From positions 2,666,001 to 2,730,000 of the forward strand of contig MDHJ01000001.1 in assembly GCA_002150995.1 (NCBI GenBank): DNA of 64,000 bases, written 5' to 3'. Below, in pieces: positions 48,008-51,907 of this stretch. The notes below the pieces were generated by a model. The model made no database searches. It was given only the letters and a program-made list of their open reading frames with translations, and was not told the origin of the DNA. This DNA is from Clavibacter michiganensis (lineage in GTDB: Bacteria > Actinomycetota > Actinomycetes > Actinomycetales > Microbacteriaceae). Position numbers and translations under genes: made by a program. Position 1 is the first letter of the stretch; every line of letters starts with the position of its first letter.

Positions 48008-49003
48008 CTACTTGGCGCCGACGGTGGCCGACGCGTTGGACTCGTACGACGTGTTGGTCGACTCGAAGAAGTTGACGAGCTGCAGCGTGTCGTTCGCCGT
48101 CGCCATCCACTTCGCCGGGTTGGAGACCTTGTACTCGGCCTCGAAGCCGAGCTCCTCGAGGCGGCGGTCGGCCAGGTACTTGACGTACTGGTTGATGTAG
48201 TTCGCGTTGAGGCCGAGGATGCCGTTGGGCAGGAGGTCGCGGTTGTACTGCTCCTCCATCTCGACGGCGTCGAGGATCATCTGCTTGATCTCGGCGGCGA
48301 ACTCCTCCGTCTGCAGGTCGGGGTTCTCCTCCAGCACCGTGAGGATGAGGTTGATCCCGAACTTGAGGTGCAGCGACTCGTCGCGGACGATCCAGTCCAT
48401 GAGCGAGCCGAAGTTGCGCAGCAGGTTCCGCTGGCGGAACGACAGCGACACCATGAAGCCCGAGTAGAACCAGATGCCCTCGAGGATGACGTTGTACGCG
48501 ACGAGGTTCCGGACGAAGTCCTTCTTGCCCTCGGTGGTGGTGATGTCGAGGGTCTGCTCGGTCATGCGCTTGATGAACTTGACCTCGAACTCCTCCTTGC
48601 GCGCCATCGACGGGATGTCGACGTGGGAGTTGTAGGCGGCCTCGCGGTCGATCGGGAACGTCTCGAGGACGTACTCGAACGACATGCAGTGGTTCGCCTC
48701 CTCCCACATCTGCTTCGCCAGGTAGAGGTGGCACTCCGGCGCGTTGATGTACGGGTACACGCCGAACGCGAGCGCCTTGTTCACGAGGAGCTCGTTCGGG
48801 TTGAAGTAGCTCATGAGGAACGTGATCGCGTGGCGCTCCTCGTCCGTCATCTTCTTGAAGTCCGCGATGTCCTCACCGAGCTGGATCTCGTTGGGGAACC
48901 ACGTGTTCGCGACGGCCTGGTCGTACAGGTCCATGGCCCACTGGTAGTTGACGGGCTTGAGGAGGAGGCCCTCCTGGATTCCCGTGCCGAGGATCTTCGA
49001 CAT
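48008..49003 (-). CDS. nrdB: Ribonucleotide reductase beta subunit, class Ic-like
   Basis: Holds the metal cofactor that starts ribonucleotide reduction with NrdA. In this 331-residue protein the six metal ligands align as Glu71, Glu102, His105, Glu175, Glu209, His212 (MWEEANH, ILEGIW, RDESLH). The residue four after His105, where class Ia/Ib enzymes have the radical Tyr, is Phe109 (EANHCMSF), and the first ligand is Glu rather than Asp. Both features, and the ligand spacing (31, 3, 70, 34, 3), match the Chlamydia class Ic Mn/Fe enzyme. It follows nrdA and a small peptide ORF, 85 bp downstream of the latter. GAGAAGAAG precedes the ATG. Confidence 0.93.
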   Translation of the reverse strand: MSKILGTGIQEGLLLKPVNYQWAMDLYDQAVANTWFPNEIQLGEDIADFKKMTDEERHAITFLMSYFNPNELLVNKALAFGVYPYINAPECHLYLAKQMWEEANHCMSFEYVLETFPIDREAAYNSHVDIPSMARKEEFEVKFIKRMTEQTLDITTTEGKKDFVRNLVAYNVILEGIWFYSGFMVSLSFRQRNLLRNFGSLMDWIVRDESLHLKFGINLILTVLEENPDLQTEEFAAEIKQMILDAVEMEEQYNRDLLPNGILGLNANYINQYVKYLADRRLEELGFEAEYKVSNPAKWMATANDTLQLVNFFESTNTSYESNASATVGAK

Positions 49004-49081: not shown

Positions 49082-49101
49082 CTCCTGCCTACTGGCAGGA
49101 G
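49082..49101 (-). terminator. Hairpin spanning the stop codon of the small nrd peptide
   Basis: CTCCTGCC-TACT-GGCAGGAG (49082-49101) is a perfect 8-bp stem with a 4-nt loop, covering the last codons and stop of the 25-codon ORF. It lies between nrdA and nrdB on their strand. It may attenuate, process or stabilise the message rather than end it, since nrdB has no evident promoter of its own. Confidence 0.5.
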
Positions 49102-49166
49102 TCGCACTGGAGCTCGTCCATGGGGTCCATGGGGACGACGTAGTCGCCGAACGTGTCGTCGTTCAT
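49089..49166 (-). CDS. 25-residue peptide with C-terminal CDSCQ, detached NrdA redox tail candidate
   Basis: The ORF encodes MNDDTFGDYVVPMDPMDELQCDSCQ. Its ATG shares one base with the nrdA stop (TGATG), and GGGAGG in the last nrdA codons lies 9 nt upstream as a Shine-Dalgarno. Class I NrdA proteins normally end in a flexible tail with a Cys pair that re-reduces the active site; this NrdA has no Cys in its C-terminal tail, whereas the peptide ends Cys-x2-Cys-Gln. Either the tail is a separate, coupled peptide, or a one-base deletion near the end of nrdA has detached it (the frame offset would fit a -1, the same direction as seven other indels here). Confidence 0.6.
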   Translation of the reverse strand: MNDDTFGDYVVPMDPMDELQCDSCQ

Positions 49167-51667
49167 CAGCGTGCACCTCCCACTCCGCCGAAGCCGAAGC
49201 CCTTGCGGGGCGCGGGAGCGGCCTGCGGGGCCGGAGCCTCCGCGGTCGCGGTGGATGCGGGAGACGACGCGGGCGCGGTCGCGGGGGCGCCGCCGCCGAA
49301 GCCGCCGAAGCCCTTGCGCTTGGTGCCGTCGGCGTCCTGAGACTTGTCGACCTTCACGGTGGACTGCTCGGCCGTGTGGCGCGGCTTCATGTGCAGGTAG
49401 TACGTGGTCTTGACCCCGCGCTCCCAGCCGGCGAAGTAGATGTCCATCATGTCACCGAGGTCGCGCGTCTCGAGGTACATGTTGCGGCTGATGGCCTGGT
49501 CGATCCACTTCTGCGCGCGGGCCGCGACCTCGAGGAACGCGTACGGCGAGAGCTGGAAGCTCGTGCGGTACGTGGCCTTGACCGAGTCCGGGATGGCCGC
49601 GATGCCCTGGATGTCGCCCTGGCTGCGGAGGATGCTCTCGCGCACCGTCTCCCAGAGGCCGAGCTCCTGCAGGTCCTTCACCAGGTTCCGGTTGACCTCG
49701 AGGAACTTGCCCGAGGAGGTGGAGCGGCTGAAGATCTGCGAGAACTGCGGGTCGAGGCCGGGCGTGGTGCCGGCGACGAGGCCGATGGACGCGGTGGGCG
49801 CGATCGCCATGAGCGTCGCGTTGCGCATGCCGCCCTTGACCTTGGCGCGCAGCGCGTCCCAGTCGAGGCGCGTGGTGCGGTTGACCTTCACGGGGACGCC
49901 GCGGTCGGCCTCCATGAGCGCGATGGAGTCGAGCGGCACGAGGCCCTCCGACCAGCGCGAGCCCGCGAAGTTCGGGTACGCGCCGCGGACCTGCGCGAGG
50001 TCGGCCGACTCGTCGATGGCCGCATAGGAGACGTGCTCCATGATCTCGTCGATGAGGTCGTACGACTCCTCCGACTCGTACGAGAAGCCGAGCTTCTCGA
50101 CGATGTCGGTGAAGCCCATGACGCCGAGGCCCACCGCGCGGTTCTGCTGGTTGGAGAAGTCCGCCTCCTTCACGCTGGAGCGCGTGATGTCGATGAGGTT
50201 GTCGAGCTGGCGGACCGCGAGGCGCGCGCTCTGCTCGATCTTGGCGAAGTCGACCTTGCCGTCCTTCAGGTGCTGCGACAGGTTGATCGACGCCAGGTTG
50301 CAGACGGAGACGTTGTCCTCGTCCTGCGGCAGCGTGATCTCGGTGCAGAGGTTCGAGAGGTGGATGGTGCCCGTGTTGTTGTTCAGGGCGCGGTTGTTGA
50401 TCGTGTCCTTCCAGGTCAGCCACGGGTGGCTGGTGGTCTGGAGCGAGATGAGGATCGACTTGAACTGCTCGCGCGCCTTGATCCGCTTGAACATGCGGAT
50501 GCGCCCGGCCTCGGCCTCGCCGACGTAGAACGCGTAGCGCTCCGAGAAGGCCTTGCCGTAGAGCTCGTTGAGGTCGGAGACCTCCAGCGGGTCGAAGAGG
50601 AACCAGTCCTCGTCGTTCTGCACGCGCTTCATGAACTCGTCGCTGATCCACACGGCCGTGTTGGCGGTGCGGGTGCGGCGGTACGGGTCGCCCGAGTTCT
50701 GGCGGAGGTCGAGGAACTCGGGGAAGTCGAGGTGCCAGTTCTCCATGTAGAAGCACAGGGCGCCGAACTTCTTGCCGCCGCGGCTGACGGCGCGGAGCAC
50801 CGAGTCGATGGTGTGCATGAACGGGATCGGGCCCGTGGAGGTGGTGTTGTTCGAGCGGATGGGCGAGCCCTGCGCGCGCAGCTTGGAGACGGAGAGGCCG
50901 ATGCCGCCCGTGCCCTTGGTGAGCCACATGACGTCGCGCGTGGTCTTCGCGATGTGCTCGATGTCGTCCTGCATCTCCATGACGAAGCAGTTCGCGAGCT
51001 GCGGGTAGATGGTGCCCGCGTTGACGAGGGTGGAGCCGGCCGCGAGGTACTCGAGCTTCGACATCTTCTCGTAGAAGGCGATGGCGGTGGAGGTCGGGTC
51101 CTGCTCGTTGAGCGTGAGGCCCATCGCGATGCGCATCCAGAAGTACTGTGGCACCTCGAGGGCGTCGCCGTTGCGGCCCTTGATGCCGTAGCGGTTGTTC
51201 AGCGTCACGACGCCGATGTACTTCAGGAGCTCGTCGTGCGCGGGCTCGAGGGCCTGGGCGAGGCGCTCCAGGTCGAACAGCTGCACGAGGCGCGAGTCGA
51301 GGAGCATCTCGTCGACGCCGCGCTGGATGTTGCGGGCGAAGTGCTCCGCGTGGAGGCGCTTGAGCTCCTCGGGCGAGGAGTAGTCGCCGAGGACGCGCTT
51401 GTAGATGGTCTTGAGGAGCAGGCGGGCGGCGACGGTGTCGAACGCCGGGTCGTCCTTCACGTTCTGGAGCGCGACCTGGATGACGGCCTCATCCAGCTGC
51501 TGCGTGGTGATCCCGTCGAAGAGGGTGATCTCCAGCTCCGACGCGATCTGCGTGACCCAGCCGATGTTCTCGTCGAGGCCCTGCGTGGCGTCCTCGATGG
51601 CCAGGTTGATGCGGTTCGCGTCGTACGGCTCCCGCGTGCCGTCGCGCTTCACTACGGTGATGGACAC
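49166..51667 (-). CDS. nrdA: Ribonucleotide reductase alpha subunit (class I, ATP-cone)
   Basis: Catalytic subunit reducing ribonucleoside diphosphates. The 833-residue protein has an N-terminal ATP-cone (ITVVKRDGTREPYDANRINLAIEDA), the ten-stranded barrel with SNLCTEITLPQ and SVCNLASINL (active-site Cys), FCFYME-like NALCFYMENWHLDFPEFLDL, and the C-terminal TAHRV-type PTASIGLVAGTTPGLDPQFSQIFSRSTSSGKF. The tail after about residue 780 is a Gly/Phe/Ala/Pro linker with two KGFGxGG repeats and contains no cysteine. Start: GTG 51667 with AAGGAG upstream. First gene of an nrdA-peptide-nrdB operon with NrdR and DnaA sites in front. Confidence 0.93.
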   Translation of the reverse strand: MSITVVKRDGTREPYDANRINLAIEDATQGLDENIGWVTQIASELEITLFDGITTQQLDEAVIQVALQNVKDDPAFDTVAARLLLKTIYKRVLGDYSSPEELKRLHAEHFARNIQRGVDEMLLDSRLVQLFDLERLAQALEPAHDELLKYIGVVTLNNRYGIKGRNGDALEVPQYFWMRIAMGLTLNEQDPTSTAIAFYEKMSKLEYLAAGSTLVNAGTIYPQLANCFVMEMQDDIEHIAKTTRDVMWLTKGTGGIGLSVSKLRAQGSPIRSNNTTSTGPIPFMHTIDSVLRAVSRGGKKFGALCFYMENWHLDFPEFLDLRQNSGDPYRRTRTANTAVWISDEFMKRVQNDEDWFLFDPLEVSDLNELYGKAFSERYAFYVGEAEAGRIRMFKRIKAREQFKSILISLQTTSHPWLTWKDTINNRALNNNTGTIHLSNLCTEITLPQDEDNVSVCNLASINLSQHLKDGKVDFAKIEQSARLAVRQLDNLIDITRSSVKEADFSNQQNRAVGLGVMGFTDIVEKLGFSYESEESYDLIDEIMEHVSYAAIDESADLAQVRGAYPNFAGSRWSEGLVPLDSIALMEADRGVPVKVNRTTRLDWDALRAKVKGGMRNATLMAIAPTASIGLVAGTTPGLDPQFSQIFSRSTSSGKFLEVNRNLVKDLQELGLWETVRESILRSQGDIQGIAAIPDSVKATYRTSFQLSPYAFLEVAARAQKWIDQAISRNMYLETRDLGDMMDIYFAGWERGVKTTYYLHMKPRHTAEQSTVKVDKSQDADGTKRKGFGGFGGGAPATAPASSPASTATAEAPAPQAAPAPRKGFGFGGVGGAR

Positions 51668-51859: not shown

Positions 51860-51875
51860 TCACTATATATGCGGG
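51860..51875 (-). promoter_or_regulatory. NrdR box 1
   Basis: TCACTATATATGCGGG matches the NrdR consensus acaCwAtATaTwgwgt in its core. A second box begins exactly 16 bp after its end, the usual NrdR arrangement. Located 193 bp upstream of nrdA. Confidence 0.8.
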
Positions 51876-51891: not shown

Positions 51892-51907
51892 ACCCCATAT
51901 GTAGTGG
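51892..51907 (-). promoter_or_regulatory. NrdR box 2
   Basis: ACCCCATATGTAGTGG matches the NrdR consensus in the reverse orientation. Centre-to-centre distance to box 1 is 32 bp (about three helical turns), as in characterised nrd promoters. Confidence 0.8.

Follow-up and report, generated by a model that had tools for sequence, protein, structure and literature searches.

The window analysed here is a 64,000-nt stretch of a single-contig Clavibacter michiganensis genome (G000:C1:2666001-2730000; listed completeness 92.3). The element in question is a 25-codon open reading frame (ORF), the mini-ORF, that lies between nrdA and nrdB, the genes for the two subunits of a class I ribonucleotide reductase. 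In class I reductases the C-terminal tail of NrdA is a tethered swinging arm, whose dithiol reduces the active-site disulfide and is then itself reduced by a redoxin. A sequence-only reading of the window had noted that this NrdA lacks cysteines in its tail while the mini-ORF ends in CDSCQ, like such a tail, and had offered two explanations: a genuinely split, trans-acting tail, or a one-base deletion near the nrdA 3′ end. The features of the locus are as follows.

49166..51667 (-), nrdA, catalytic subunit, 833 aa; GTG start at 51667, TGA stop at 49166-49168; the protein ends RKGFGFGGVGGAR
49089..49166 (-), mini-ORF, putative detached redox tail, 25 aa, MNDDTFGDYVVPMDPMDELQCDSCQ, C-terminus CDSCQ; its ATG overlaps the nrdA stop
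49175..49180 (-), Shine-Dalgarno sequence GGAGGT of the mini-ORF, within the final nrdA codons, 8 nt ahead of the ATG
48008..49003 (-), nrdB, radical subunit, 331 aa, class Ic type as judged from profile matches and alignment to Chlamydia R2
51892..51907 (-), NrdR-box-like site 1, 5′ of nrdA, CCACTACATATGGGGT, by match to an NrdR consensus
51860..51875 (-), NrdR-box-like site 2, 5′ of nrdA, CCCGCATATATAGTGA, by the same consensus

The start within the stop codon and the Shine-Dalgarno site in the last nrdA codons are both as that reading described: the mini-ORF ATG and the nrdA TGA have one A in common (TGATG), and GGAGGT also precedes the mini-ORF in all five other Clavibacter loci (L002-L006).

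The window NrdA matches the NCBIfam model NF005101 (PRK06539) over its full length (1-821 to 1-822/822; 1720.9 bits, cut-off 988) as well as PF02867, and its nearest solved relative is 5IM3; the nearest named NrdA, 98% identical, agrees with an origin in Clavibacter. It contains four cysteines, at positions 227, 305, 441 and 456, with none beyond 456, so the C-terminal pair usual for class I NrdA is missing, as had been noted. Cysteines 227, 441 (SNLC) and 456 (VCNLAS) line up with cysteines of 5IM3, and we take them to be the catalytic-site cysteines (E. coli C225/C439/C462). The neighbouring gene encodes a ferritin-type NrdB, which makes this a class I enzyme and not an adenosylcobalamin-dependent class II enzyme of the NrdJab type. 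The solved chains nearest to NrdB are those of Chlamydia R2 (1SYY and 4D8F), and in the alignment to 1SYY (EEANHCMSF/EEAVHTHTF and FNPNE/FSTAE) a Phe and a Glu column match the class Ic pattern. Presumably the Phe replaces the radical Tyr and the Glu replaces the first metal-ligand Asp; by this alignment NrdB is of class Ic type.

Across the window genome PF02867, which covers class I and II large subunits, has one match, the window NrdA, and the class III reductase model PF13597 has none. The tailless NrdA is the only reductase found in this genome and must therefore be reduced somehow. By eye, the sole glutaredoxin-family match of the genome (L331, G000:C1:2372053-2372217) looks mycoredoxin-like. 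The window peptide has no match in Pfam or NCBIfam and no redoxin domain within its 25 residues; two further copies of the peptide have no match in NCBIfam, and neither the genome's second copy nor four phage peptides, all described below, have one in PHROGs. The earlier description of the peptide as glutaredoxin-like thus holds by analogy only, and not in the sense of family membership or size.

Conservation and origin of the split

Relatives of the window locus were taken as the best 80 of 477 candidates, one of which (L045) is truncated before the 3′ end, leaving 79. In 76 of these, nrdA is followed by a mini-ORF of its own that closes with P-x-D-P-M-[D/E]-x-L-x-C-[D/E]-S-C-Q-stop. The other three (L025, L055 and L062) each carry a stand-alone copy elsewhere in the genome, and this genome search ruled them out as peptide-free counter-examples. 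In L025 and L062 the copy is on a different contig from nrdA; in L055 the two share a contig at a distance of 1.87 Mb (about 0.2 Mb should that contig be circular). None of the 79 complete NrdA tails has a cysteine after TYYL, past the barrel, and all 79 keep a [RK][RKT]GF[AG] motif within the last 35 residues.

Counting the window, 77 operonic copies of the mini-ORF were available, 67 of them distinct. Relative to nrdA, 68 share the window's offset, six lie in frame after a stop and three have the third offset; the start codon falls between -1 and +8 from the nrdA stop in 74/77. Ten of the last 17 codon columns encode a single amino acid throughout, and third bases vary, as in the Val column (GTG 23, GTC 22, GTT 16, GTA 16). 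The mean ratio of nonsynonymous to synonymous differences (pN/pS) is 0.25 over 2211 pairs.

Presence of the peptide follows that of NrdA. Among 398 genomes of the family, searched with peptide profile A2 at E <= 1e-4 and for NrdA at E <= 1e-200, the peptide was detected in 177 and NrdA in 166, all of them within the 177; neither was detected in the remaining 221 at these thresholds. The 11 genomes with the peptide alone are draft assemblies of 40-420 contigs each, and at E <= 1e-3 seven of them contain NrdA fragments, one of only 22 residues. In the order-wide search described next, a genome of the family (G230) gave a weak match in a 16-codon open frame (E 1.9e-4).

Outside the family the same tail occurs in cis. 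With profile A1, built from 21 peptides, 69 of 396 genomes from the order match at E <= 1, many by chance, and we read 29 outside-family loci (L089-L117), leaving out one long-frame match (G266) and matches weaker than E 1e-3. In 28 of the 29, an NrdA of the same subfamily carries the tail CPVDPMERLQCESCQ, or one close to it, after RRGFGG-type linkers. These fused tails correspond to the free peptide VPxDPMDxLxC[DE]SCQ, so that the mini-ORF would encode, as judged by homology, a separate polypeptide equivalent to the redox tail of the unsplit enzyme. The roughly 1000-aa open frames at these loci were also considered as class II enzymes and rejected as such: 28 of the 29 are fused NrdA and one (L110) is frame-broken. 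L110 (genome G369) has its tail motif out of frame with NrdA, in an open frame of 109 codons, and is alone in the fused clade in this respect; unlike the window, it looks like a true indel or a sequencing error. Among 396 genomes searched across the phylum, only that of the window showed a free tail; the search also gave a fused NrdA in G982 and a weak, partial match in G1044.

A maximum-likelihood tree of 71 partial NrdA sequences (350 columns; only the even-numbered loci of L002-L080 were used) has a branch with support 100/97 that separates 40 bacterial split rows from 29 fused rows and L110, the last labelled split solely because its frame is broken. Since the same tail is fused to the same NrdA in other families, the simplest reading is that the fused form came first and that the split is probably derived. 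The direction of change is not proven by the tree, because its root is unfixed and its single viral row has a very long branch.

Unlinked, plasmid and viral copies

The window genome carries a second peptide gene, MDYDNNDSVGGYAIPVDPMELLQCDSCQ, with its ATG at C1:3089098 on the minus strand, unlinked to nrdA. It is preceded by the tandem sequences ACACTAGATGTAGTGG and GGTTATATAGTGG, which resemble NrdR boxes. Such pairs were scored against an NrdR consensus, requiring summed matches >= 21/32 and a spacing of 30-33; the pair 5′ of the window nrdA scores 23/32 with a spacing of 32. Among 63 scored copies, which are the best-scoring loci and not a random draw, a predicted pair precedes 40 of the 47 copies away from nrdA and 0 of the 16 next to it, against 2/940 mononucleotide shuffles. 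Copies were labelled as next to nrdA if a GFG-type motif occurred in any frame <=260 nt before the peptide stop, a rule by which a few labels may err; L171, on a 66-kb contig away from nrdA, is a possible mislabel. Each of the seven unlinked copies without a box pair is at least the third copy in its genome. L153 and L155 probably correspond to plasmids NC_010399 and NZ_CP012575, L175, L179, L180 and L181 come from contigs of 45-66 kb, and the contig that bears L182 is 4.2 Mb long. Predicted tandem boxes about three helix turns apart at these 40 unlinked copies and at the window nrdA tie the stand-alone gene to the reductase regulon.

Two copies per genome is the commonest number, and 12 genomes picked for many copies have 3-6 each. 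From these we fetched 18 extra-copy regions, in two of which (L198 and L200) the motif found no copy. Neighbours tested against Pfam include an ArdC N-terminal domain with a single-stranded DNA-binding protein (SSB) in L190, SSB in L184 and L207, SRAP in L186 and a relaxase in L187; the remaining regions were judged by eye. Three 93-aa proteins (MSTLIT...) carry the tail motif as their last ~20 residues (L185:6139-6420, L188:5646-5927 and L196:2816-3097), and their N-terminal part has no Pfam match above cut-off.

Searching plasmids by tblastn, we obtained matches in 19 of 72,556 records (E 4e-4 to 0.3), of which 15 are from Clavibacter, three from Leifsonia and one from Gryllotalpicola. Three records were opened, and copies here and in phages were accepted on motif, start and stop. 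On pCM2 (L206) and pCS1 (L207), the peptide gene is flanked by an ArdC-like gene and an SSB gene, surroundings that we take to be of the kind found in early-entry regions of conjugative plasmids. One Leifsonia plasmid encodes a 33-aa copy (L205:4977-5078, WP_223361114.1) misnamed 'ribonucleotide-diphosphate reductase subunit beta'.

In Naasia lichenicola (L087:967-1542 (+), L122) the tail is part of a larger protein: a redoxin-like ORF ends RAPVDPEDGLDCDSCQ, with the C-terminal tail VDPEDGLDCDSCQ. Its redoxin part matches NF007657 NrdH (E 2.2e-8), TIGR02194 (4e-7) and PF00462 (0.0099), all below cut-offs, and we consider it most likely that this predicted fusion joins the tail to its reductant. 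A relaxase-like ORF lies near it, as judged by eye.

Isolate phages also carry the peptide. Six of 50,697 records match, representing four distinct phages (tblastn E 6e-3, 0.3, 0.4 and 10). Short unannotated ORFs occur in Pontimonas phage phiPsal1 (MSDPFDAIDRVDGIDVPIDPMDLLQCTSCQ) and in Clavibacter phages CMP1 (MGDGEYTVPQDPMDEFQCDSCQ) and CN1A (MNNDNEYTVPIDPMDELICEGCQ), and a more divergent ORF in Pseudanabaena phage Pan2 (MDDFDTIDGFACPNDPADLVSCESCQ, L204:3998-4085). The Pan2 ORF overlaps an annotated 27-aa coding sequence, Pan2_27, in another frame, and the recorded host of this phage, unlike those of the others, is a cyanobacterium. In the phages opened, annotation misses the peptide gene, and PF02867 has no match in any of the four phage records with the peptide.

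Viral contigs were searched with a degenerate DNA pattern for the motif plus stop, requiring the PxDPM[DE]xLxC core. At least 120 stretches match, and every one listed lies in an open frame of at most 147 codons; one listed frame reaches the contig edge with no start visible. Among the matches listed there are 94 distinct peptides with a modal length of 25 aa. Viral contigs may hold some host DNA, a doubt from which the isolate phages are free. The hexamer TANNNT occurs exactly 15 nt ahead of the start in 17 of the 91 distinct viral leaders among the matches listed (L208-L327; 1.7 expected), and the leader sequences hint at leaderless transcripts in a subset of viral copies. An NrdA profile detected a reductase in one of 124 partial viral loci searched (L256). 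The tail of that NrdA, which ends APRKGFGFKSAN, again lacks cysteine, and the reductase gene has the peptide gene just upstream, an order that excludes a read-through origin there. The viral NrdA (L256:9822-13314 (+)) is 1120 aa long and contains an insertion, possibly an intein.

Interpretation and alternatives

We consider it very probable (roughly 0.87) that the mini-ORF supplies NrdA with its C-terminal redox tail, a 25-residue dithiol polypeptide that is made separately and re-reduces the active site in trans. At the sequence level this is supported by the split itself, by homology to the fused tails, by conservation, by co-occurrence with NrdA and by the unlinked, plasmid and viral copies. 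From these we infer how translation, docking, disulfide exchange, the reductant and a benefit to phages might fit together. Each turnover would leave a disulfide between two active-site cysteines of NrdA; the free peptide, YxVPxDPMDxLqC[DE]SCQ, would then move into the active site, in the manner of the fused tails of other reductases, and the [RK][RK]GFG(F)G end that NrdA has kept may serve to hold it. With its CxxC pair the peptide would take over the disulfide and depart, to be re-reduced by thioredoxin, a mycoredoxin or a redoxin of the NrdH type. The operon copy is probably translationally coupled to nrdA. With a further copy at an unlinked site behind a pair of NrdR-like boxes, the cell could adjust the supply of tail independently of NrdA. 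Tail genes on phages and plasmids, most simply, would raise or secure deoxynucleoside triphosphate (dNTP) synthesis by the host reductase during the element's own replication.

A broader version, to which we give a little better than even odds, is that free tail peptides of ~20-30 residues form a shared currency of Microbacteriaceae, their phages and their plasmids: the host would control its sole reductase through a diffusible redox peptide, and mobile elements would seize that control while they replicate.

Several observations weigh against the trans-acting tail. The tblastn E-values of the isolate phages and of most plasmid records are weak. A Shine-Dalgarno-like sequence is weak or absent ahead of some copies in the relatives; among the viral matches listed, such a signal precedes 24 of the 91 distinct leaders and 46 show neither it nor a -10-like signal, so that Shine-Dalgarno sites fail as the sole account of the viral copies. 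As two copies per genome are commonest, one may be dispensable. Four of the 11 peptide-only genomes have no NrdA at E <= 1e-3, and in the window genome NrdH was not found, with one PF00462 match at E <= 0.001. Translation of the mini-ORF is itself something that we infer from sequence, and a free 25-mer would need some means of matching the local concentration that tethering provides.

The peptides on phages and plasmids might instead be decoys that bind NrdA or a redoxin and block the host reductase. Their N-terminal parts are variable, some are the ends of ~93-aa proteins without a Pfam match at E <= 0.001, and the phage copies depart from the host form in places (CN1A and phiPsal1 vary between the cysteines, CMP1 has Phe for Leu, and Pan2 lacks the Met). 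The mobile copies nevertheless retain both cysteines and a near-host PxDPM[DE]xLxC core, although that core was required in the viral-contig search; an inhibitor would not need a dithiol, and we regard decoys as unlikely. Still less probable is a ribosomal frameshift or read-through at the nrdA stop that yields the tail in cis, with no separate gene. The offset common to 68 of the 77 operonic copies would fit a frameshift and read-through could account for the six in frame, but the two other offsets also occur, a start codon lies close to the stop in nearly every copy, and neither process can make the unlinked, plasmid and viral copies or the peptide-before-NrdA order of L256.

That the mini-ORF is a leader or coupling peptide setting nrdB translation, its amino acids being incidental, would suit its position between nrdA and nrdB and its overlap with the nrdA stop. 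It is contradicted by amino acids that are kept while third bases vary, by the same peptide far from nrdB and by the homology to fused NrdA tails, and we give it very little credence. A sequencing error or recent indel that removed the tail has a likely example in the fused clade, in G369; for the window we regard it as next to impossible, as the arrangement is common to 76 of 79 relatives from other assemblies. A continuous NrdA reading through to CDSCQ, which the sequence-only reading had named as the sign of such an artefact, was seen only outside the family, in fused enzymes. Of its two explanations, the one-base deletion is therefore set aside by conservation of the split across Microbacteriaceae. 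The trans-acting tail gains support from the adjacent mini-ORFs together with the three unlinked cases, from a frame that is not fixed (68/6/3) and from the unlinked, plasmid and phage copies, and its redox action in trans would follow from homology.

If the trans-acting tail is right, much of a bacterial family (166/398 genomes) has apparently severed the tail from its enzyme and kept it as a gene of ~25 codons. The redox step would thus be open to titration, mutation and dosing without any change to the enzyme itself, and whether a tail needs its tether becomes easy to test. The arrangement also suggests that a peptide can set the supply of dNTPs. A likely function is thereby assigned to an overlooked micro-gene matched in at least 120 viral stretches, three Microbacteriaceae phages and 19 plasmid records; if the peptide is indeed a shared currency, its gene may be among the smallest auxiliary metabolic genes.

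Comparison with known systems

Chlamydia provides the nearest match for the radical subunit: the window NrdB is closest to its class Ic R2, with the same Phe and Glu columns. Chlamydia NrdA carries its tail in cis.

In the literature covered by our search, which placed subscription papers and preprints outside its scope, the parts of the papers seen describe no detached class I tail, no split NrdA in Microbacteriaceae and no such phage peptides, and the motif strings occur in none of the papers; the portions seen of PMC9669993 and PMC9531940 likewise make no mention of a detached tail. Facklamia ignava has a glutaredoxin fused to NrdB (PMC6187632), which is similar in that a small, added redox module serves a class I reductase. 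As far as the portions consulted describe it, a redoxin fold reduces the tail there, whereas here the tail itself would be a separate molecule. In Aeromonas phage Aeh1, a homing endonuclease inserted at a functionally critical site divides NrdA, which is active (PMC2988022, PMC3653736); one of these two papers speaks of an intein. Aeh1 thus shares with our proposal a class I NrdA made as two polypeptides, but it is a single phage, and the parts of these papers seen present the split neither as the detachment of a redox tail nor as a host-wide arrangement.

The closest precedent of a detached NrdA tail is NrdJa/NrdJb of Pseudomonas aeruginosa, a split class II enzyme in which a separate dithiol subunit mediates exchange and is needed in vivo (PMC4520616), and which the sections consulted called, as of 2015, the only split reductase found in a non-viral organism. 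In both systems the C-terminal part with the redox cysteines is, or here would be, a separate polypeptide encoded in the same operon. NrdJ differs in being B12-dependent and of class II, in the size of NrdJb (229 residues vs 25 here) and in being linked in one operon, with no unlinked, plasmid or phage copies mentioned in the portion of PMC4520616 seen. The NrdJb precedent indicates that a separate dithiol subunit can re-reduce a reductase, the role that we propose for the 25-residue peptide.

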